Source of the DNA: Natrinema mahii
GTDB lineage: Archaea; Halobacteriota; Halobacteria; Halobacteriales; Natrialbaceae
Direction: 5' to 3'
NCBI GenBank assembly: GCA_000690595.2
Contig: JHUT02000002.1
Location: 1 to 64,000, forward strand
DNA: 64,000 bases
In this document: positions 1 to 35,167 of the stretch, piece by piece
Position numbering within the stretch: the first letter of the stretch is position 1
How the letters are laid out: every line of letters begins with the position of its first letter
Translations under genes and position numbers: made by a program
The notes under the pieces: model-generated
The model's input: only the letters and a program-made list of their open reading frames with translations
Told to the model about the DNA's origin: nothing
Databases searched by the model: none

Positions 1-49
1 ACTATAGTAACCATTAGAACTTTCCGCCCAGAGATTGTTGCTGCATCTA

Positions 50-574
50 ATGGATCATCTCGACGAGATCTCTGTCGAAGAACTTCACGACGCACTCGGC
101 AACGTCGAGGGAAGGAAGCCGGCACAACGGCTTTTAGCGGCGATTGAGTACAAAAACGGCGTTACGCAGACCGAACTAGCCGAGTGGCATAACACCGGCC
201 GGCGAACAATCTACAGTTGGCTCAAGCGACTCGACACTGACGAGTCGCTTGAGCAGGCCGTTACTGATGCTCATCGATCCGGAAGAAATCGGAAACTCTC
301 AGAAAAAGAGCAGCAAGAGTTCGAAGAAACAGTCCACGAATCTCCTGAAGAAGTTGGGGTAGACGCGCCGGCGTGGACGCCGGCGCTCGTCCAGGAGTAT
401 CTCGACGAAACCTACGATGTCGAGTACTCAATCCCAAGCTGTCGGCGGTTGCTCAAAGAAGCGGGATTGAGCTATCAAAAGCCACGACGTACAGCCGCCG
501 AATCAGATGCTGAGGACCAAGAAACGTTCCGCGAGGAACTCAAAAAAAGCGGCGGGAAATGGACGCCACAGTAG
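50..574 (+). CDS. IS630 transposase, N-terminal part (orfA)
   Basis: This is the DNA-binding half of the transposase. Residues from about 25 to 65 form a helix-turn-helix with the typical ELAEW..TGRRTIYSWLKRL pattern, followed by a second winged-helix-like segment containing the pair WTP and LVQEYL. The ATG at 50 is preferred to the in-frame TTG at 35 because the family usually begins MDHLDEISVEEL. The frame ends at 574, inside orfB, which is shifted by -1. Seven A residues at 542-548 form a classic slippery heptamer in phase with the codons (A AAA AAA), so a -1 slip would join the two halves into one protein. Confidence 0.85.
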   Translation: MDHLDEISVEELHDALGNVEGRKPAQRLLAAIEYKNGVTQTELAEWHNTGRRTIYSWLKRLDTDESLEQAVTDAHRSGRNRKLSEKEQQEFEETVHESPEEVGVDAPAWTPALVQEYLDETYDVEYSIPSCRRLLKEAGLSYQKPRRTAAESDAEDQETFREELKKSGGKWTPQ

Positions 575-1050
575 TCTGTATCGATCAAACTAAGAAATCC
601 GTCCAAGTTGAGCCGCGTGCCGCGTGGTTTCCGCGCGGCACGCGACCGTCTGTTGAATTGTCTGGACAACGCGACTGGACGTGTCTCTTAGGCGCGATCA
701 CCGAGGACGGTGATCGCTTTTTCTCTCGGTTTGAAGAGTACGTTACCGCCGATCATGCAAAACATTTCATTCTCGCATTATGCCAAGAGTTCGAAGATGA
801 CTTGATTATTGTGTTGGATGGAGCGCCGTATTTTCGAGCGTCGGACGTCACGGACCTAGCGGCCCGTGACGACCTCGCTTTCGTAACATTGCCGGCGTAT
901 TCACCAGAGCTAAACCCGGTCGAAGAGTGCTGGAGACAACTCCAAGCGGCACTTAGCAATCGCTTCTTTGACTCACTCAACGAGCTCACAACAGCGATTG
1001 ATACAGCTATTGATCAACTCTCGCTCCCAAAGATGAGCAATTATTTCTAA
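559..1050 (+). CDS. IS630 transposase, DDE catalytic part (orfB)
   Basis: This frame carries the catalytic DDE domain. The first Asp is in VVCIDQTKK, the second in IIVLDGAPYF and the Glu in LNPVEECW, all with the spacing expected of IS630/Tc1. The frame is -1 relative to orfA and overlaps its end. The ATG at 559 may not be the real start: conserved sequence before the first Asp runs back to the A7 slippery site at 542-548. The domain looks complete and undamaged, so the element may still be active if frameshifting occurs. Confidence 0.85.
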   Translation: MDATVVCIDQTKKSVQVEPRAAWFPRGTRPSVELSGQRDWTCLLGAITEDGDRFFSRFEEYVTADHAKHFILALCQEFEDDLIIVLDGAPYFRASDVTDLAARDDLAFVTLPAYSPELNPVEECWRQLQAALSNRFFDSLNELTTAIDTAIDQLSLPKMSNYF

Positions 1051-1184
1051 CGTCTACTATAGCTCTCGAACTATGTGCGGTTCTGATTTTCCTAATTCCT
1101 AGTTGGCCTAGTGTCTATCAATTATTTTCCACGGGACGAATCTCTCGTGCGAAAGAAACATTGAACCGGAATTACGGATCAGGA

Positions 1185-1574
1185 ATGTCTGCACACAAGG
1201 TAGGAGAGCTATCATCCAATGAAATAGGATTTAACGAATTTATTGATTCTCTTCATGAAGCCGAAGGAAATGAATGGGAGCGAGGCAACAGAGCATCTCC
1301 AATCCCTTGGGAGGATATTGAACTACTTAAAGTCAAAACAGATCACCCCGGAATTGATCCTGATTGGTCTAAGCGATCGCAGGACCGCTTTGCCCTCTTA
1401 TCACTCCAAGACGAGAATCAAGAGGAAATTGTCAGTATGTGGTTAGGCACTGCTAATATTATCGCTGAAAGAGAAATCCAGGCGGGGAGAAACCGAATTC
1501 ACCGATGTGGAATTCTTTTTATCTTGAGTAGCTTTGCCCTGATTCTTATCGGGATGTTATCTCTACCGATATAG
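1185..1574 (+). CDS. hypothetical protein with C-terminal membrane segment
   Basis: A 129-residue protein that I do not recognise. The first ~100 residues are soluble and charged, with no known motif. The last ~22 residues (from GILFIL on) are strongly hydrophobic and form one predicted membrane segment with a very short tail, so a tail-anchored topology is likely. The ATG at 1185 is used; a TTG at 1161 in the same frame would add eight residues. Base composition is far lower in GC than the core genome, and it sits directly behind the insertion sequence, both signs of acquired DNA. Confidence 0.5.
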   Translation: MSAHKVGELSSNEIGFNEFIDSLHEAEGNEWERGNRASPIPWEDIELLKVKTDHPGIDPDWSKRSQDRFALLSLQDENQEEIVSMWLGTANIIAEREIQAGRNRIHRCGILFILSSFALILIGMLSLPI

Positions 1575-1893
1575 AAGCTCGGCTACTGAATAGTGTATTT
1601 GGAACCCAGAGGTTGTGCGTCGATAGAACCCGATCCCCGAATATGCACACGAGATGCGAATCCTCGTGTGTATATCTTGAATCGATTCCAGACTTGACGC
1701 ATCTTCCTTTCCCCAAACCAAGATATTCCTCTGATGTAGGGTCGAAATAGGCTATCCAGTAAGTCGAAAAACTAGAAATTTGAAGTTGTGTGTACGAATC
1801 TGTAGATCCGGATAGACGACTATTATACGTACTAACCGGAGACAATTGTGTCTCCAGTCCAGAAGTTTTACTGTCGGCTACTGTCACTTAGGG
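1575..1893. other. 319-bp low-GC gap with one strong hairpin
   Basis: No convincing gene is seen here. A 113-codon frame on the minus strand (1546-1887) overlaps the end of the upstream gene and has no family resemblance. The gap holds an inverted repeat at 1641-1675 (listed separately) and AT-rich stretches near 1765-1830 that could include the promoter of the following gene. Confidence 0.5.
1641..1675. repeat. inverted repeat, 13-bp arms with one mismatch
   Basis: ATATGCACACGAG at 1641-1653 pairs with CTCGTGTGTATAT at 1663-1675 across a nine-base loop, with a single mismatch. The inner eight base pairs are perfect. It lies 67 bp after the stop of the membrane-anchored hypothetical gene. 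It may act as a transcript-end hairpin or be a protein-binding site or mobile-element end; the sequence alone does not decide. Confidence 0.6.
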
Positions 1894-2475
1894 ATGATGA
1901 ATGAAGAGGACGACAAAAAATCATTTCTAAGCCGACGAAACGCACTCACTCATTTGGCAGCAGGGATATCGGGATGGTTCTTGGGCACATTCCTTGACCC
2001 GCTCAGACGTGGTGTGAACAATCTTATTGCTGATACACCCTTCGGGAGAAGGGCACAAGTTAATATTGGATATTCACATCGTCCGGAAGAAGAGGGTTAT
2101 CTTGTACAGATAGGTAATTCTGGCAAGGAGACTGCAGAAGACGTATCTATACACTTGGGGTTCGATAGAAAGATAACTGATTACCAATCAAAGGATTGGG
2201 TGAATGCTCCACCACTACCTAATATGAACATCGAAATCACCGATGGTGGTGTTGTTAGAATCAATATTGATTCTATCAGTAGAGATGCTATTGATCATGG
2301 ACAGCACATATTCATAGTATTTGATGTTGATGAGAAAGCAGAAAGTGATGTGGCCTCCAAAATAGATGAAGGGGAAGAAATGTTCACTGCTTACCAATAT
2401 TCATGGACGTTCTTGGGAGAGACCTACTATGAATCCACAGACCATCATATAATCAGAGTGGATGACTCCTCTTAG
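1894..2475 (+). CDS. hypothetical protein with N-terminal membrane or Tat-like segment
   Basis: A 193-residue protein of unknown function. It opens with an acidic stretch, then SRRNALTH followed by a hydrophobic run to about residue 35, which resembles a Tat-type signal or a membrane anchor (twin Arg, uncharged core). The rest is a globular, beta-rich-looking domain containing the phrase VQIGNSGKETAEDVSIHLGF, reminiscent of beta-sandwich domains with conserved N-x-G-x-x-x-A turns; this is only a resemblance. ATG at 1894 or 1897 could start it. GC is low, as in the previous gene, and the two probably arrived together. Confidence 0.5.
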   Translation: MMNEEDDKKSFLSRRNALTHLAAGISGWFLGTFLDPLRRGVNNLIADTPFGRRAQVNIGYSHRPEEEGYLVQIGNSGKETAEDVSIHLGFDRKITDYQSKDWVNAPPLPNMNIEITDGGVVRINIDSISRDAIDHGQHIFIVFDVDEKAESDVASKIDEGEEMFTAYQYSWTFLGETYYESTDHHIIRVDDSS

Positions 2476-2486
2476 TAATCCATTCG

Positions 2487-2877
2487 TCAAAATACGTCTG
2501 AGATCGCTATTTTGGTCTGTTGGGTTCCGCGGTGATCGCCTCCGCCATGCCACCGGAGTAGCGGGAGACTGCTCGAGCGGACCATCTTGTCCTGCAGAAT
2601 TGTGAGCCCAGAATGACCCTGTGGCTTGTAGACGACGAAACAGTACCAGCCGTCATGCTGCCGGAGCTTTTCATGGTACTTGCGATAGACCTTCCAGTTC
2701 CCCGGTTGGCCGTCCGCGTGTTCGTGCATGGTCGTACTTGATTTCGACCGGCGTCTCGTTCCCGAACCGCGCGTCGTGCCAACTCGCCCGCTCGAGGTCG
2801 AACCGTCGCTTCTTGGCCATCCGCTTTTCGCAGATCGTGCCGAAGTGGTTCGCTCGCTTTGAACGGGATCGACTCAC
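2487..2877 (-). pseudogene. PD-(D/E)XK nuclease-like gene, frameshifted
   Basis: Two minus-strand frames join into one recognisable small protein. The N-terminal frame (from GTG at 2877) reads through CEKRMAKKRRFDLERASW and HDARFGNETPVEIK, where D and E-x-K resemble a PD-(D/E)XK nuclease site. The C-terminal frame starts near 2729 with MHEHADGQPGNWK and ends WHGGGDHRGTQQTKIAI. One extra base at about 2730-2738 separates them. A palindromic TATA at 2901-2912 lies 30 nt upstream of 2877, consistent with a leaderless transcript. I recall similar proteins from haloarchaeal proviruses and plasmids, but could not check. Confidence 0.55.
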
Positions 2878-2900
2878 GCGGACCACGCGCGTCGCGCGCC

Positions 2901-2912
2901 GATATATATATC
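2901..2912 (-). promoter_or_regulatory. palindromic TATA box for the nuclease-like remnant
   Basis: GATATATATATC stands out in otherwise GC-rich DNA. On the minus strand its centre is about 30 nt before the GTG at 2877, the usual distance of a haloarchaeal TATA box from a leaderless start. Confidence 0.5.
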
Positions 2913-3036
2913 AACTCCTCGCCGTGACTCGGCCAGCGCCCATCGGTCGCTTCGCTCCCTCGGAGCGGAGCGCACGGTGGGCCAGTATAAGTAAAGGGGA
3001 GAGCGTAACCATAACCAGCTAACCATCCCGCTGCCG

Positions 3037-3540
3037 TCATGCGATCACCTCCTCCACTTTGCCAAGCGCCTCCGTGTGCTGGCCTTCGTTCCGGTACTCG
3101 TTCCACCGAGAGTTGACCCAGCCGTGGCTGTACGGGACGAATTGAGCGGTTTCACGATCCGTCATACCATCCTCTTTGCACCGGATCGCCGTCCAAATCG
3201 CCGTCATCTTGGCCGCCTCGTCGGGTTCCATTTCCTCGGTTTCGTCGCCGTACTCGGACCAATTCCAGTCGCTGGCCTCTTTCGTGTTGTACCGGAGGTC
3301 CGTCGGTGGGACGCCCTCTATCTCACCCTGAATGTCGGCGAGTTTCCCGTTCCTGATCGAGTCGGCGATGCCGGCCATCTTCTGTGAGACCTTCTTGACG
3401 ATCGTGCCGACGCGCCAGAGCATCGGGTGAATCGACCGCTCGCCGTGTGCGATGTAGATGAGCGCACCGCCGTACTTCCGGATCATGTAGACGAGCGGGG
3501 CCATTTTCTGCCGAGTCTGGTATCCCGCTCCCGCTGGCCG
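3037..3540 (-). pseudogene. C-terminal remnant of a viral/plasmid-type P-loop ATPase
   Basis: The readable part (ATG 3504 to 3037, 155 codons) contains MIRKYGGALIYIAHG and ERSIHPMLWR, which look like the distal strand and sensor region of a HerA/FtsK/VirB4-like packaging or mobilisation ATPase. No Walker A or B precedes it. The frame stays open upstream of the ATG (reading TRQK just before it) to an in-frame stop near 3561, so homology seems to run into the junction. The coding part ends in a zinc-free, charged tail with a predicted helix-turn-helix (DGMTDRETAQFVPYS). It is probably a truncated piece of an integrated element. Confidence 0.45.
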
Positions 3541-3561
3541 CGCTCGAGGCAGCGCCAGCTA

Positions 3562-3873
3562 TCACCCGTCGGACGATGCGAGCCAGGCCTCGAGCCGAGC
3601 GACGAGGGCGTCGGCGATGGCGTCGCCGAGCCGGTCGGGCGTCTCGGAGAGGTCCCAGACGTAGTCGCCGGTTCGGGTGACGGTCACCCAGTCGACGAAC
3701 CCGTGGCGGTCCAGTTCGAGGAGGAGCGTCTCGAGGGTGGCGTCGGCGAGGCGACAGCCCACGGCGTCGTCGATCGAGTCGGAGAGCTGTGCGGTCGTCG
3801 CGACGACGCGGTCCTCGAGGTGATCGTCGGTCGCGGGAGTGGGGGTCGGCGGCGAGGGCGGCCGATCAGTCAT
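3562..3873 (-). CDS. small haloarchaeal orphan protein, 103 aa
   Basis: A short acidic protein with a Pro/Thr-rich disordered start and a compact predicted alpha/beta domain from about residue 20 (ATLETLLLELDRHGFVDWV, then VTRTGDYVWDLSETPDRL). I do not recognise the family. The ATG at 3873 is chosen because codon use becomes typically haloarchaeal there, while the long frame upstream is an antisense shadow of the propeller gene. It marks the return of core-like composition after the accessory DNA; the ATPase remnant ends against its 3' end. Confidence 0.6.
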   Translation of the reverse strand: MTDRPPSPPTPTPATDDHLEDRVVATTAQLSDSIDDAVGCRLADATLETLLLELDRHGFVDWVTVTRTGDYVWDLSETPDRLGDAIADALVARLEAWLASSDG

Positions 3874-3965
3874 CGTCGACCGCTGGGTGTGAGTGGGGAC
3901 GTAATAGGTTTGGTGGGAGTCGCGGACGCGGGACGGTATCGACGTGCGACCGATTACCGACAGCC

Positions 3966-5288
3966 CTACTCGGCGACGAGCTTGTAGCCGCCGCCGTCGG
4001 TGTCGGCCTCCTTGTCGTCCTCCGGGTCCGGGTTTGGTGCCCGTTCGGCGTAGTAGATGGCCCCGTCGATGACCCGTGGCGTACTCGTGACCACGCCGTC
4101 GTTGTCGATCTCCCAGACGAGATCGCCGCTTCGTTTCTCGAGTGCGTAGAGGCCGCCGTCCTTCGAGCCGACGAGGACGCGGTCGTCGTAGACCGTCGGA
4201 CAGCCGGTGATCGGGCGGTCGGTCGGGAACGACCAGTGTCGGTCGCCCGACTGCGCGTCGAGCGCGTACAGGTTCCCGTCGTGGCTGCCGACGAAGACGG
4301 TATCGAGCGTCGGGTCGATGGCGGGCCCGGACATCACCAGACTGCCGGTCTCGAACGACCAGTCCTCGGTGCCGTCCTCGAGGTTCACCCGATACACGTG
4401 GTGATCCCACGAGCCGAAATACGCGCCGCCGTCGTAGGTCGCGACCGGGCCCTTGATCTCGCCGTCGTTGTCGTTGCTCTCGGTCTCGAACGACCACTCG
4501 AACTCGGGGTCGGGGTACGACCAGCCGTAGAGGAGTCCGTCGTTCGATCCGCAGACGAGGCGGCCGGTCTCGAGGTCGACGGCGGGCGTCGAGTGAGGGT
4601 GGTCGGTCGGCCGACCCTCGGGGTCCTCCCAGATGACCTCGCCGTCGTCGGCGTTCACGACGAAGGTACTCCCCTCCGGATCGGGATACTCGACCGCCAT
4701 GACGAGTCGGCCGTCGTGATAGAGCGGGCTCGAGCCGATGGAGCCGCCGAGTTTCGTCTGCCAGTCGACGTCGCCGGTCTTGGCGTCGACGGCGTAGAGA
4801 ACGCCGTCGTACGCGCCGATATATACCCGGCCGTCGGCGACCGCCGGCGTCCCGTGGATTCCCCGGGCATCGGGGCCGGTGTCGGTCCCGGTTCGCCAGC
4901 GCTCCTCGCCGTCTGCGTCGAGCGCCACGAGATAGCCGCTGTCGCCGGGGAAGACGACGCCGCCGTCGGGAAGGGGGACGGCGCTCGCCTTGGCCGCGGT
5001 GTGGGCGCCCGTGTTGAGCCGGTCGAGCCGCCAGTCCCGCTCGACGGCGTCGGGAACCGACGCGTCCGGGTAGTAGCCCCACCGCTCGAGCGACCGTCTG
5101 AACTGGGCGACGCCCTCGGGCACGGTCGCCGCGAGATCGGTCTCAGTCTCGGGGATCAGGTCGTCCCCGCTGTCGCCGAGACAGCCCGCGAGGGCGATCG
5201 TCGCCGCCGTCGCGCCCCCGACCGTCCGCAGTACGCGTCGCCGTCCGTACGTGCGGTGGTCGCGGGCGGGCTGCGAGTCGTCAGTCAT
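3966..5288 (-). CDS. Tat-exported PQQ-type beta-propeller lipoprotein
   Basis: A 440-residue protein. It begins with a twin-arginine signal (RRRVLRTVGG) and a lipobox ending LAGC at about residue 35, so it should be exported folded and lipid-anchored on the outer face of the membrane. The mature part consists of repeated propeller blades with the signature G.VYIGAYDGVLYAVDAKTG and similar, typical of PQQ_2/PQQ-like repeats; about seven or eight blades are visible. Such proteins may bind ligands or scaffold complexes; no catalytic residues are obvious. The ATG at 5288 places the Tat signal at the N-terminus; the longer open frame is non-coding. Confidence 0.85.
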   Translation of the reverse strand: MTDDSQPARDHRTYGRRRVLRTVGGATAATIALAGCLGDSGDDLIPETETDLAATVPEGVAQFRRSLERWGYYPDASVPDAVERDWRLDRLNTGAHTAAKASAVPLPDGGVVFPGDSGYLVALDADGEERWRTGTDTGPDARGIHGTPAVADGRVYIGAYDGVLYAVDAKTGDVDWQTKLGGSIGSSPLYHDGRLVMAVEYPDPEGSTFVVNADDGEVIWEDPEGRPTDHPHSTPAVDLETGRLVCGSNDGLLYGWSYPDPEFEWSFETESNDNDGEIKGPVATYDGGAYFGSWDHHVYRVNLEDGTEDWSFETGSLVMSGPAIDPTLDTVFVGSHDGNLYALDAQSGDRHWSFPTDRPITGCPTVYDDRVLVGSKDGGLYALEKRSGDLVWEIDNDGVVTSTPRVIDGAIYYAERAPNPDPEDDKEADTDGGGYKLVAE

Positions 5289-31799: not shown

Positions 31800-32990
31800 A
31801 TGACCGCAGATTTCGAACGTGACGGCTCGAGCGAGCGGTCGGCTCTCGAGCGGGTCGAGCGCTCCGCGGGTCGTCCCGCCGAGGGCGAGCGGCCGACGGG
31901 GCCGCCGCGCCGGGTGCTGACCGACGGCGGCCAGGCGGAGATGGAAGAACCGGACGGCGAGGGAGACGGCGCTGAGGGCGACGACGCCACGGGAGCGGCG
32001 CAGGACGAGTCGGGCCGAGCGGGCGACGAGGAGACCGCGTCGTCCGGGGAACCGGCGGAATCAGCGGACGAATCCGACGAGGAGGCGGCGGAGAAAGCCG
32101 AGGCCGAGGCCGAGGCGGCGGCGGACGACGAGGACGAGGAAGGGACGGTCGAGGACGAGCAGTCGGAAGAGGAGGCCGGCGAAGAGCCGGCCGAATCGGA
32201 CGTCGAAGACGAGGGCCCGGCGGACGAGGGCGCCGAAGAAGCGGACGGAGACGAGGACGAACGGACCGATATCGGCGATCTCGTCGAGGACGACCGCGAG
32301 GAGGGCCACGCCGCGGACGCCGAGGACGTCTACGAGGGCGACGACGCCGCCGGCGTCCTCCATCTCGACCTCGACGGACTCTTCCTCGACGTCCTCGGCC
32401 TCGAGGTGAACCTGAACCCGGTGCAGTTGGACGTCTCGGCCCGGCCGGGATCGAACAACCTGCTCGGGAACCTGCTGTCGGCGGTGACGGGGCTGCTCGA
32501 CGGCCCCGGGGCCATGCTGGACAAAGTGAAGTCGTTGCTGAGCAAGCCGCTCGAGGTTCTCAAGAAGCTCCCCGGGAAGGCCAAAGCGGCCTTCAGTGGC
32601 CTGCTCGAGAGGCCCAAGGCGTTCCTCAGCGGGCTGGTGAGCAAACCGAAGGAGTGGCTGACCCGCTTCTTGGGTCTCGGCGGCGAGGAGGCGGGAGCCG
32701 ACGGCGAGGACGAAGGCGACGCGGCCGACGAGGCGGACAGCGAGGAAGCCCCGGCCGAAGCGGACGAGGAAGGCACGAGCGAGGAATCGCCCGGCCCGCT
32801 CGCCAGAGTGGGCGGCTGGCTGCGGGAGCAACTCTCCCGGCTCGTCCCCAGCCTCCCCGTCGAGGAGATCGTCGCAGCCGTCGTCTCGCAGGTGATCGAA
32901 CAACTGATCGAGCGACTCGAGCCGGAGGGCGAGGAGGCGGCGTCCGGCGGCGAGCCGGACTCGGCGGCGGGAACGGAGGCGACATCATGA
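31800..32990 (+). CDS. acidic protein with LLGNLL motif and amphipathic Lys-Pro repeats
   Basis: A 396-residue cytoplasmic-looking protein, first of a four-gene cluster. Residues 1-180 are almost pure Asp/Glu/Ala/Gly. Residues ~183-233 form a hydrophobic core motif (LDLDGLFLDVLGLEV and SNNLLGNLLSAVTGLL), which I have seen in bacterial proteins of unknown role. Residues 234-295 are basic and amphipathic, with repeated Lys-Pro or Arg-Pro steps (LLSKPLEVL, LLERPKAFL, LVSKPKEWL). A second acidic block and a C-terminal helix pair follow. No signal or membrane segment. It overlaps the next gene by four bases. Confidence 0.65.
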   Translation: MTADFERDGSSERSALERVERSAGRPAEGERPTGPPRRVLTDGGQAEMEEPDGEGDGAEGDDATGAAQDESGRAGDEETASSGEPAESADESDEEAAEKAEAEAEAAADDEDEEGTVEDEQSEEEAGEEPAESDVEDEGPADEGAEEADGDEDERTDIGDLVEDDREEGHAADAEDVYEGDDAAGVLHLDLDGLFLDVLGLEVNLNPVQLDVSARPGSNNLLGNLLSAVTGLLDGPGAMLDKVKSLLSKPLEVLKKLPGKAKAAFSGLLERPKAFLSGLVSKPKEWLTRFLGLGGEEAGADGEDEGDAADEADSEEAPAEADEEGTSEESPGPLARVGGWLREQLSRLVPSLPVEEIVAAVVSQVIEQLIERLEPEGEEAASGGEPDSAAGTEATS

Positions 32991-33460
32991 GCGACGAATC
33001 CATCACACAGCGGATCGACACGGAGGCGATCACGGAGAACATCGACGTCGACCAGCTCGTCGAGGGCACCCAGTGGGAAGACGAGATCGACGGGGACATG
33101 CCCCTCGGCGCGGCGCTGGGCGGCCAGATCGGCGCGCTCGTCGGCCGCAAAGTCGGCGAATCGCTCGGCCGGACGATCGGGACCATCGTCGTCGAGGAAC
33201 TGCTCAGTAGCGACGAGGCCGAGTCGGACGGCGAGGAGGAAAGCGGCGCCTCCGAGGAGGAAGCCACCGAAGCGGAGTCCGACGACGAGGAATCGGACGA
33301 CGAGGAGAGCGCCGAGTCCGAAGACGAGGACACCGAAGAAGAAACCGAGGCGGAAGGCGACGACGGAGGCGAGGCCGAAAGCGACGCCGATGCCGGCGAC
33401 GACGCGGCCGACGAGGACGCCGAGGAGGAAATGGAAGCCGAAGCCGAGGAGGAAGAGTAA
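32987..33460 (+). CDS. acidic protein with perfect seven-glycine zipper (copy 1)
   Basis: A 157-residue protein. After 40 residues with predicted short helices, glycines fall at 41, 45, 49, 53, 57, 61 and 65: seven G-x-x-x steps without a break (GAALGGQIGALVGRKVGESL within it). From residue 75 the protein is a Glu/Asp/Ser tail. Glycine zippers let helices pack very closely and often mediate oligomers or membrane insertion; here the other positions are mixed polar and apolar, so either is possible. The next gene has the same zipper, so the two are likely paralogues or partners. Confidence 0.65.
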   Translation: MSDESITQRIDTEAITENIDVDQLVEGTQWEDEIDGDMPLGAALGGQIGALVGRKVGESLGRTIGTIVVEELLSSDEAESDGEEESGASEEEATEAESDDEESDDEESAESEDEDTEEETEAEGDDGGEAESDADAGDDAADEDAEEEMEAEAEEEE

Positions 33461-33510
33461 GTCCGTGAGACGGTTTCGCTACGACGCCCGCTCGAGCGGT
33501 GGTGGTCGGC

Positions 33511-34281
33511 GTGAGTGACGAGTCCGGGCTGAAGGGGATGGTCGCCGACGAGGTGAAAGCACAGATCGACGTGGCCGACATGCTCGGGGACGGCAGCATC
33601 GAGGACAGCATCGACGGCGGCGAGATCGGGGCCGCGGTCGGCCGCCAGTTCGGCGAGCAGTTCGGCCGCCAACTGGGGACCGCGGTCGGTCGCGAGGTCC
33701 ACGAGACGGTCGCCGAGAGCCTCGAGGAGGGCACGGAACTCGGCGACCTCCCGGCCGAGGTCCGGACGGCGGTCGCGGACGGCGTCCGCGACTCGTTCGC
33801 GGAGATCGAAGGCCGCGACTCCCTCGAGTCGATGGCGACGAGTGTCACCGAAGGAAGCGGCGTCGAGGGGCTCCTCGAGGGGGTCGGCGGCGAAAGCGGA
33901 GGTACCGACGCCGCGGAACCGGAGGGCGAGGCAGCGTCGGAGACCGAAGAACCGTCGGTCGACGAGGCGGACGACTCCGACGAGGCTGACGAGGACGCCG
34001 AGGACAGCGACAGGACCGAGTCGGAAACCGAGGGCGGCGAGGAAACCGACGAAGCGGCGGACTCGGACGCCGAGCCGTCCGTCGAAGAGATCGAAGACCT
34101 GCGGGAAGACACCCTCGAGGACTTCCTCGGGGTGCTGTCCTACAGCGACCTGCAGTCGGTTGCGAAAGACGTCGATGTGAAGGCCAACCTCAGCCGCGAG
34201 GAGATGACCGCGGAGATCGTCGAGACGGTGACCGACGAGGGGGCGGACGACTCGGAGACGGAAGCGGCCGAGGCCGAGTAG
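33511..34281 (+). CDS. acidic protein with glycine zipper (copy 2) and SAP-like C-terminus
   Basis: A 256-residue protein if GTG 33511 starts it (MSDESGLKG, like the previous protein's MSDES); a GTG at 33499 would add four residues. Glycines at 36, 40, 44, 48, 52, 56 and 60 repeat the seven-step zipper (GAAVGRQFGEQFGRQLGTAV). A helical region to about residue 120 precedes a ~75-residue acidic linker. The end (EDLREDTLEDFLGVLSYSDL, then VKANLSREEMTAEIVETV) resembles a SAP or Rho-N helix-extended-loop-helix that may bind nucleic acid. The order in the operon suggests joint action with genes on either side. Confidence 0.65.
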   Translation: MSDESGLKGMVADEVKAQIDVADMLGDGSIEDSIDGGEIGAAVGRQFGEQFGRQLGTAVGREVHETVAESLEEGTELGDLPAEVRTAVADGVRDSFAEIEGRDSLESMATSVTEGSGVEGLLEGVGGESGGTDAAEPEGEAASETEEPSVDEADDSDEADEDAEDSDRTESETEGGEETDEAADSDAEPSVEEIEDLREDTLEDFLGVLSYSDLQSVAKDVDVKANLSREEMTAEIVETVTDEGADDSETEAAEAE

Positions 34282-34345
34282 TCGACCGAACGCACTGCGC
34301 CCCGTCGCGGGGACGACCAGCGAGAGCGAAGTGACACAGACACAG

Positions 34346-35167
34346 ATGAGCGACTCAGCACTCCGGGACCGCGTCCGCGAGGTACTGCACGACGCCGACG
34401 AGCGCGGCGGCTCGCTCGTCTCCGGCGACGACGGGGACGCCGACTCCGACCTGCTCGAGACCGCACGCGAAGCCGACGATATCCTCGAGTCGGCTGCCCC
34501 CGACGACCTGCTTTCGGCGGTCGGCCTGGACACGCTCGAGGACGGCTCGGAGCCGGACTCGGTCCCCGAGGCGATCGCCCGGGGCGAGCGGGAGCACGTC
34601 GCGGACCTCCAGCGACTGCTCCGGCTCTCGAGGCTCGCCGACCGAGCGGACGGCGAAGGGCTCGGGGACGCCGTCGGCGAGCTGCAGGAAGCGATCGGCG
34701 AACCGGCCGAGTCGGTAGCCGACATCGCAGAGAGCGCAGTCGACGCGGACGATAGTGAAGGGACGGCTGACGGTGAGACGCCGGCCGGGTCCGACGGGGA
34801 CGGCTCGGCCGCGGGCGAGGCCGAGTCGACGACCGTCGATCTCGGCGACAGGCTCCGGTCGGCGATGCGCGACTCGGTCGCCGACTTCGGGGACGAGGTG
34901 TCGCAGCTGAAGGCGCGCCTCGAGGAGCGACGCGCCGGGACGGCCGAGAGCGACGCGGACGACACGACGGCCGGGGACGAGGCTGCGGAGGCCGAAGCCG
35001 CCGACGAGGACGAGGGGCTGCTGGGCTCGGGACTCGGCGGGGATGGGGACCGGGGCACGGCCTCGGGCGGGCCGAGCCGCCACTCGACGATAGCGCCGCC
35101 GCCGTCCCAGCGGGCGGACATGCGCGGGACCGCCCGCCACTCGACGATGCCGGACAAACGCGGGTAA
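34346..35167 (+). CDS. acidic helical protein with duplicated RHST C-terminal motif
   Basis: A 273-residue protein, last of the acidic cluster. It starts at ATG 34346; a GTG at 34331 is possible. Predicted helices (SALRDRVREVLHDADER, then LLRLSRLADRADGEG) are separated by acidic linkers. The last ~35 residues are basic and carry two copies of a short motif, SRHSTIAPPP and ARHSTMPDK, encoded by an exact 15-base repeat at 35077-35091 and 35134-35148. The motif at the extreme end may be a docking or modification site. No known domain was recognised. Confidence 0.6.
   Translation: MSDSALRDRVREVLHDADERGGSLVSGDDGDADSDLLETAREADDILESAAPDDLLSAVGLDTLEDGSEPDSVPEAIARGEREHVADLQRLLRLSRLADRADGEGLGDAVGELQEAIGEPAESVADIAESAVDADDSEGTADGETPAGSDGDGSAAGEAESTTVDLGDRLRSAMRDSVADFGDEVSQLKARLEERRAGTAESDADDTTAGDEAAEAEAADEDEGLLGSGLGGDGDRGTASGGPSRHSTIAPPPSQRADMRGTARHSTMPDKRG

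Follow-up and report, generated by a model that had tools for sequence, protein, structure and literature searches.

We analysed a stretch of 64,000 nucleotides from the haloarchaeon Natrinema mahii (contig JHUT02000002.1, positions 1 to 64,000), referred to below as the window. Our subject is a set of four genes, g1 to g4 (the quartet), whose open reading frames are all present on the forward strand, head to tail, between positions 31800 and 35167. Genome comparisons tie the quartet to the gas vesicle (gvp) genes of haloarchaea, and we propose that it may coat and size the float in the place of GvpC. The genes and their features are as follows.

31800..32990, forward strand: g1, 396 amino acids, with an acidic N-terminal half, the LLGNLL core domain, tandem 11-residue amphipathic repeats and C-terminal helices
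32352..32510, forward strand: LLGNLL core of g1, residues 185-237, mean column identity 85% (20 sequences, over the surrounding 81-residue stretch)
32529..32660, forward strand: repeats of g1, four tandem 11-residue amphipathic helix units of the SGLLxKPKExL type
32987..33460, forward strand: g2, 157 amino acids, a glycine-zipper protein with a long acidic tail; its start overlaps the g1 stop (ATGA)
33107..33190, forward strand: glycine zipper of g2, seven invariant glycines spaced i, i+4
33511..34281, forward strand: g3, a paralogue of g2, in a reading frame open from 33499 with a likely GTG start at 33511; zipper, acidic linker and SAP-like C-terminal domain
33616..33699, forward strand: glycine zipper of g3, seven glycines spaced i, i+4, five of them invariant, predicted to lie within one long helix (residues 36-73)
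34087..34236, forward strand: C-terminal three-helix domain of g3, residues 193-242, SAP-like by fold comparison
34346..35167, forward strand: g4, likely start ATG at 34346, 273 amino acids, an acidic paralogue of the GvpI family
35078..35164, forward strand: C-terminal double RHST(M/I)-P tail of g4, counterpart of the STMP/STVP tail of GvpI

An initial annotation of this DNA described four acidic, unrecognised proteins arranged as an operon, and most of that description holds. Aspartate and glutamate account for 26-42% of the residues of g1-g4, versus a median of 20% for the 57 genes called in the window. No Pfam or NCBIfam family scores above its cut-off for any of the four proteins, but g4 is recognisable as a relative of GvpI. 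The suggestion that the genes travel together is borne out as well. A search of genome contigs with g2 recovered the complete set, in the same order and on the same strand, in 19 of 19 related loci, the closest of these being that of N. thermotolerans (L009), and the g1 core shares 99% identity with a protein of Natrinema sp. Across 292 Halobacteria genomes g1 is found in 95 and g2 in 94, with 92 carrying both of the 97 that carry either; one of the g2 matches (E 6.2e-4), in a genome without gvpA (G028), is an unrelated frame of 836 amino acids. In a sample of 294 genomes from the phylum, for which the share of other orders is not given, all 17 g2 matches come from the same order.

Alignments of orthologues, 20 sequences for each gene, locate the constraint within each protein (the N-terminus of one g1 row, L020, is doubtful). 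It is centred on the LLGNLL core and the C-terminal helices in g1, on the first 75 residues in g2, where GTQWExEID and the seven zipper glycines are invariant, on two domains in g3 and on both ends of g4. The acidic linkers are free to vary.

Loci from distant families showed quartet genes within gas vesicle clusters, and we therefore searched the 292 genomes for gvpA. It is present in 119 of them. All 95 genomes with g1 have gvpA, and g1 is found in none of the 173 genomes that lack gvpA (Fisher p 1.8e-54; genome counts are not independent). The neighbouring DUF3209 gene, used as a control, occurs in 148 of the 292 genomes and has no such link (odds ratio with gvpA 1.55, p 0.07).

Of the 40 loci that we fetched, 16 have g1 and gvpA at most 20 kb apart, under six family labels. 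These 40 were chosen for distance and are not a random sample; L088, L100 and L101 among them are stand-alone or second g1 matches, and the genes in L068 and L088 were located by profile search. A further stretch, L112, whose position had been guessed, was left out. The arrangement varies between clusters. In L078 a single strand carries gvpA-gvpO-g1-g2-g3-g4 in that order. In L071 and L089 the complete quartet adjoins gvpO-gvpA, which sit on the other strand, and in L072 and L087 the interval between gvpH and gvpI holds g1 together with a g2-like gene that matches weakly. The window quartet itself is not beside gvp genes. Its genome carries an 11-gene gvp cluster on another contig (C1), made up of gvpO, N and A and of gvpF, G, H, I, J, K, L and M, with no gvpC between gvpA and gvpN.

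Absences follow the same pattern. Two genomes of the same genus that lack gvpA (G092 and G028) also lack the quartet. Both flanks are intact in G092 and only remnants are left, namely residues 1-45 of g1 and pieces 1-25 and 66-113 of g3, the zipper being gone. In G028 no quartet gene was matched beside the upstream PQQ gene, and the other side keeps the ModE and UspA genes with tupA and tupB unmatched. A further five gvpA-less genomes of the family are without g1 (G046, G203, G213, G214 and G265).

Could the association reflect shared ancestry alone, with the quartet doing another job in haloarchaea that happen to keep gvp genes? As many as 64 of the 95 g1 genomes fall under one family label and are thus not independent, and 10 of the 11 quartet loci fetched from that family show no gvpA within a stretch of ~20 kb. 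We nevertheless regard this explanation as very improbable, given the gvp linkage under six family labels, the joint absence of quartet and gvpA within one genus, and the GvpI ancestry of g4 described below.

Some further features of these loci may be recorded here. One genome that has gvpA (G192; L132, 7805-10198) carries a decaying quartet: an in-frame deletion has removed the g1 core, and the tail of g4 has slipped out of frame. A small protein with zinc-ribbon-like cysteines (cluster c31; L064:10779-11117 and seven more) adjoins g1 in eight gvp-linked loci and sits between gvpO and g1 in seven of the eight, the exception being L081. No gvpN was called in the L063-L089 gvp clusters by BLAST with the GvpN of the window genome; the window genome's own cluster and the GvpC-type clusters have gvpN.

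Which gvp genomes carry the quartet? A GvpC profile, built from nine haloarchaeal GvpC proteins (A7), was run on all 119 gvpA genomes. At E<=1e-6 it identifies GvpC in 1 of the 95 g1 genomes versus 12 of the 24 gvp genomes without g1 (p 3.3e-9), and at E<=1e-3 in 4 of 95 versus 14 of 24 (p 7e-9). From the counts at the stricter threshold it follows that most gvp genomes carry either GvpC or g1. The published record is mixed. Natrinema pellirubrum, Natrialba magadii and others are stated to be without gvpC (PMC4390858, PMC3403918), which agrees with our profile counts. A later table lists these species with gvpC, and Natrinema pellirubrum as gvpACNO (PMC9501494, Table 1); that listing conflicts with PMC4390858 and with the gvp cluster of the genome studied here. 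On a separate point, the gvp clusters L118, L120, L121, L122, L126, L127 and L130 come from genomes with neither GvpC nor the quartet, and the genomes of L128 and L129 have just a weak GvpC-profile match, located elsewhere in the genome.

The initial annotation had a hydrophobic LLGNLL motif and Lys-Pro repeats at the beginning of one protein, g1; both are present, but they lie in the middle of the protein (~residues 185-287). Over orthologues the identity at a lag of 11 residues is 31%, versus 10% in shuffled sequences (z 21.9), and harmonics appear at lags of 22 and 33. The hydrophobic moment of the repeats has its maximum near 98 degrees, as expected for an amphipathic helix of 11-residue repeats. 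The window g1 has four units, and the number ranges from none to about five among orthologues. In the gvp clusters L066, L067, L075 and L076 (families f8 and f9) the 11-residue repeats are replaced by tandem 18-residue amphipathic repeats of the SPISALRSAASRVWxVVT type (lag 18, z 18.8 over the four proteins).

The core of g1 was compared with GvpA, and its reading as a divergent GvpA was rejected (hhalign Prob 0.1). Searches of g1 and its relatives reported no Pfam family for the LLGNLL domain, and PDB sequence searches with the g1 and g3 C-terminal profiles gave nothing significant. Where the databases name relatives of g1, they call them 'uncharacterized' or 'hypothetical' protein, apart from a single 'DNA primase'. 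The domain also occurs as stand-alone proteins with a cysteine before the core, not near gvpA (L100, L101 and L088), and the quartet puts one branch of it into a gas vesicle context.

The seven-step zippers reported for two of the proteins are real. Both g2 and g3 contain an unbroken run of seven glycines at every fourth residue, which 0 of 20000 shuffles of g2 and 1 of 20000 of g3 reach. Their conservation is complete in g2, where none of the seven glycines varies over the 20 sequences aligned, and partial in g3, where five are invariant and the sixth nearly so, but the first (G36) is not conserved. The two proteins are paralogous by hhalign (Prob 97.4, E 1e-11). What distinguishes g3 is its C-terminal domain, which in fold comparison resembles regions of 3'hExo and DEK that we take to be SAP domains; no g3 Foldseek match reaches E<=0.001.

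This resemblance, along with the long acidic linkers, is what one might expect if the quartet tethers, clusters or positions vesicles, or connects them to nucleic acid or to regulation through g3, leaving the shell unaffected. We judge such a role improbable. Assignment of g3 to NNH1 (PF22733) was rejected, at 20.2 bits versus a cut-off of 27 and with 2 of 20 orthologues matching at E<=0.5. A separate observation concerns one genome, G238, which encodes a GvpC-like protein of 416 amino acids between gvpA and gvpN (L124:10684-11934). It is without the usual zinc-finger end, and the short domain at its end bears a faint likeness to the C-terminus of g3; this likeness (Prob 10%, E 0.003) was not taken as evidence of kinship.

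The last gene, g4, is kin to a known protein. Against GvpI profiles it aligns over 236 columns, near full length and with the tails included (hhalign Prob 98.8, E 1.2e-16). A tree of 51 rows (13 of the 20 g4 rows, another 18 from quartets, and 20 of the 31 that BLAST returned for GvpI) places 30 quartet g4 proteins and 20 GvpI on opposite sides of a split supported at 100/100; the remaining g4 row, from L073, groups with GvpI and is probably that cluster's own GvpI. On these comparisons g4 is, as judged from sequence, an old paralogue of GvpI. The RHST tail of the initial annotation is present, but as a doubled motif, RHSTIAPPPSQRADMRGTARHSTMPDKRG, with a variable histidine. Invariant in the tails of 20 sequences are both S-T pairs, three residues of RADM (R, D and M) and three more residues. 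Deletion of gvpI in the Halobacterium gene set gives extremely long vesicles (PMC4390858), and this phenotype, combined with the kinship of g4 to GvpI, suggests a size role for g4.

Paralogy with GvpI can also be read differently. The main rival to our proposal is that the quartet forms a complex for gas vesicle assembly or nucleation, in which GvpH or GvpL would be the partner of g4, as it is of GvpI, while g1-g3 would serve the growing shell as chaperone and scaffold and later leave. GvpI binds GvpH, GvpL and GvpC (PMC9501494), and in L072 and L087 g1 and the g2-like gene lie inside the gvpF-M assembly run. Binding to the shell is favoured instead by the amphipathic repeats of g1 and by the near absence of GvpC from quartet genomes, and the quartet of L078 follows gvpA-gvpO, not the assembly genes. 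We think an assembly complex rather unlikely.

In our preferred reading the four genes make up a gas vesicle module, with the task of coating the float and setting its size in GvpC's place. The quartet occurs with gvp genes and almost never with gvpC, and this is why we consider such a replacement likely, with a probability of roughly 0.55. At the level of genes and genomes, the case consists of the operon, co-occurrence with gvpA, gvp linkage in several families, near exclusion with GvpC, absence or decay of the quartet in two gvpA-less genomes of the same genus, and the GvpI ancestry of g4.

How might such a module work? By analogy with GvpC of Anabaena, whose amphipathic repeat helix runs along the ribs in cryo-electron work (PMC10185304), g1 would use its amphipathic repeats and LLGNLL core to sit on the outside of the GvpA shell. 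Through their zipper helices g2 and g3 may pack together, as pairs or as a polymer, and give a scaffold for g1, and the acidic tails of the two proteins could help the surface to stay soluble at high salt. A partner would dock at the SAP-like domain of g3, and g4 might act as GvpI does, limiting vesicle length through its RHST-P tail. A bolder version, which we put forward tentatively and at less than even odds, is that about a third of the sampled haloarchaea have a second, unrelated outer coat, in which a g2/g3 zipper polymer carries g1 and a ruler, g4, derived from GvpI. Such a coat would be an independent way of reinforcing a protein shell filled with gas.

Several observations weigh against a coat in GvpC's place. 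Twelve of the 24 gvpA genomes without g1 are also without GvpC at E<=1e-6, so GvpC's job can be dispensable. One genome, G005, has both g1 and GvpC, and three further g1 genomes have weak matches to the GvpC profile (E 1.5e-4 to 8.5e-4). In G005 the single credible GvpC (C1:2335022-2335813) adjoins one of six gvpA-family matches; this quartet genome probably has a second gvp cluster, of the GvpC type. Among the 95 g1 matches, that of G249 is weak (E 1.5e-8) and falls on a stand-alone LLGNLL protein whose contig is not the one that carries gvpA. A g4 distinct from GvpI is missing in 13 of the 16 gvpA-linked loci, and hence g1 with the zipper protein is the widest core of the module.

The proteins themselves raise further difficulties. 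Neither the g1 core nor g3 shows homology to GvpC (hhalign Prob 0.1 for each). GvpC repeats are 32-40 residues long (PMC9501494) versus 11, or 18, in g1, and the orthologue in L014 has no repeats at all. The AlphaFold model of g1 is poor, with a mean predicted local distance difference test (pLDDT) score of 60, and Foldseek found no match for it among PDB structures. Finally, a 2015 review (PMC4390858) gives gvp clusters without gvpC for species of Natrinema, Natrialba, Natronobacterium, Halopiger and Haladaptatus, with no gas vesicles and the reason unexplained. According to the same source, named species without gvpC, Natrinema pellirubrum for one, form no gas vesicles, so that floats are unseen in them.

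The initial annotation pictured parts of an assembling filament, shell or membrane-remodelling coat. Since the module goes hand in hand with gas vesicle genes, the idea of a shell-forming system is apt. The annotation did not name the organelle, however, and the quartet does not make up a new system standing by itself. Nothing in our analysis points to membrane remodelling. Our literature search returned no paper with both 'gas vesicle' and 'glycine zipper', and among the matches listed none describes g1-g4, judged by title or start of abstract. The gas vesicle itself is known; the quartet module of it appears undescribed in the literature searched.

If the coat-and-size reading is correct, the quartet would explain how gvpC-less clusters manage without GvpC, and the engineering of gas vesicles would gain new candidates for shell-binding proteins. 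To try a gvpC-less cluster in a foreign host, one would need to add the quartet, and the question thereby becomes directly testable.

The surroundings of the quartet are of a different kind. Upstream lie a cobalamin cluster ending in cbiX and then the DUF3209 and PQQ-type propeller genes; downstream are TupA-like, TupB-like, ATPase and ModE-like genes. A role in cobalamin or tungstate metabolism was considered and rejected, as the neighbours differ across other lineages and DUF3209 does not track gvpA. Elsewhere in the window, positions 1-4000 have a guanine-plus-cytosine fraction of 0.47-0.58 versus ~0.68 in the rest, possibly a mobile or foreign stretch.

How does the quartet compare with known systems? 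The glycine-zipper families PF13488, PF05433 and PF13441 have the G-x3 periodicity in common with g2 (best E 0.016), but differ from it in its long acidic tail, and all scores stay below gathering (15.6 bits for PF13488, cut-off 25). Bacterial LLGNLL-domain proteins share with g1 the core pattern FLDLLGLxVDLSxVxLDVxAxxGxGNLLGNLLxAVxGLLDG; by eye, the majority of the aligned ones show a cysteine before the core and a signal-like start, whereas the window g1 is without that cysteine. Haloarchaeal GvpI resembles g4 over nearly the full length and in the S-T-x-P tail, but forms a separate clade and has a basic end, RIYGxRF, of which RIYG is found in 0 of 20 g4 rows; the window g4 is also encoded outside the gvpH-gvpJ position.

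The closest parallel in predicted role is GvpC of haloarchaea and cyanobacteria. The likeness lies in the amphipathic helical repeats of g1, in the near exclusion across genomes and in the placing of the L078 quartet after gvpA-gvpO. GvpC has a zinc-finger end, CxxC...H (C341, C344, H355 and H359 are invariant in A7), whereas g1-g4 of the window contain no cysteine. GvpC is also one protein, while its predicted equivalent here is spread over several.

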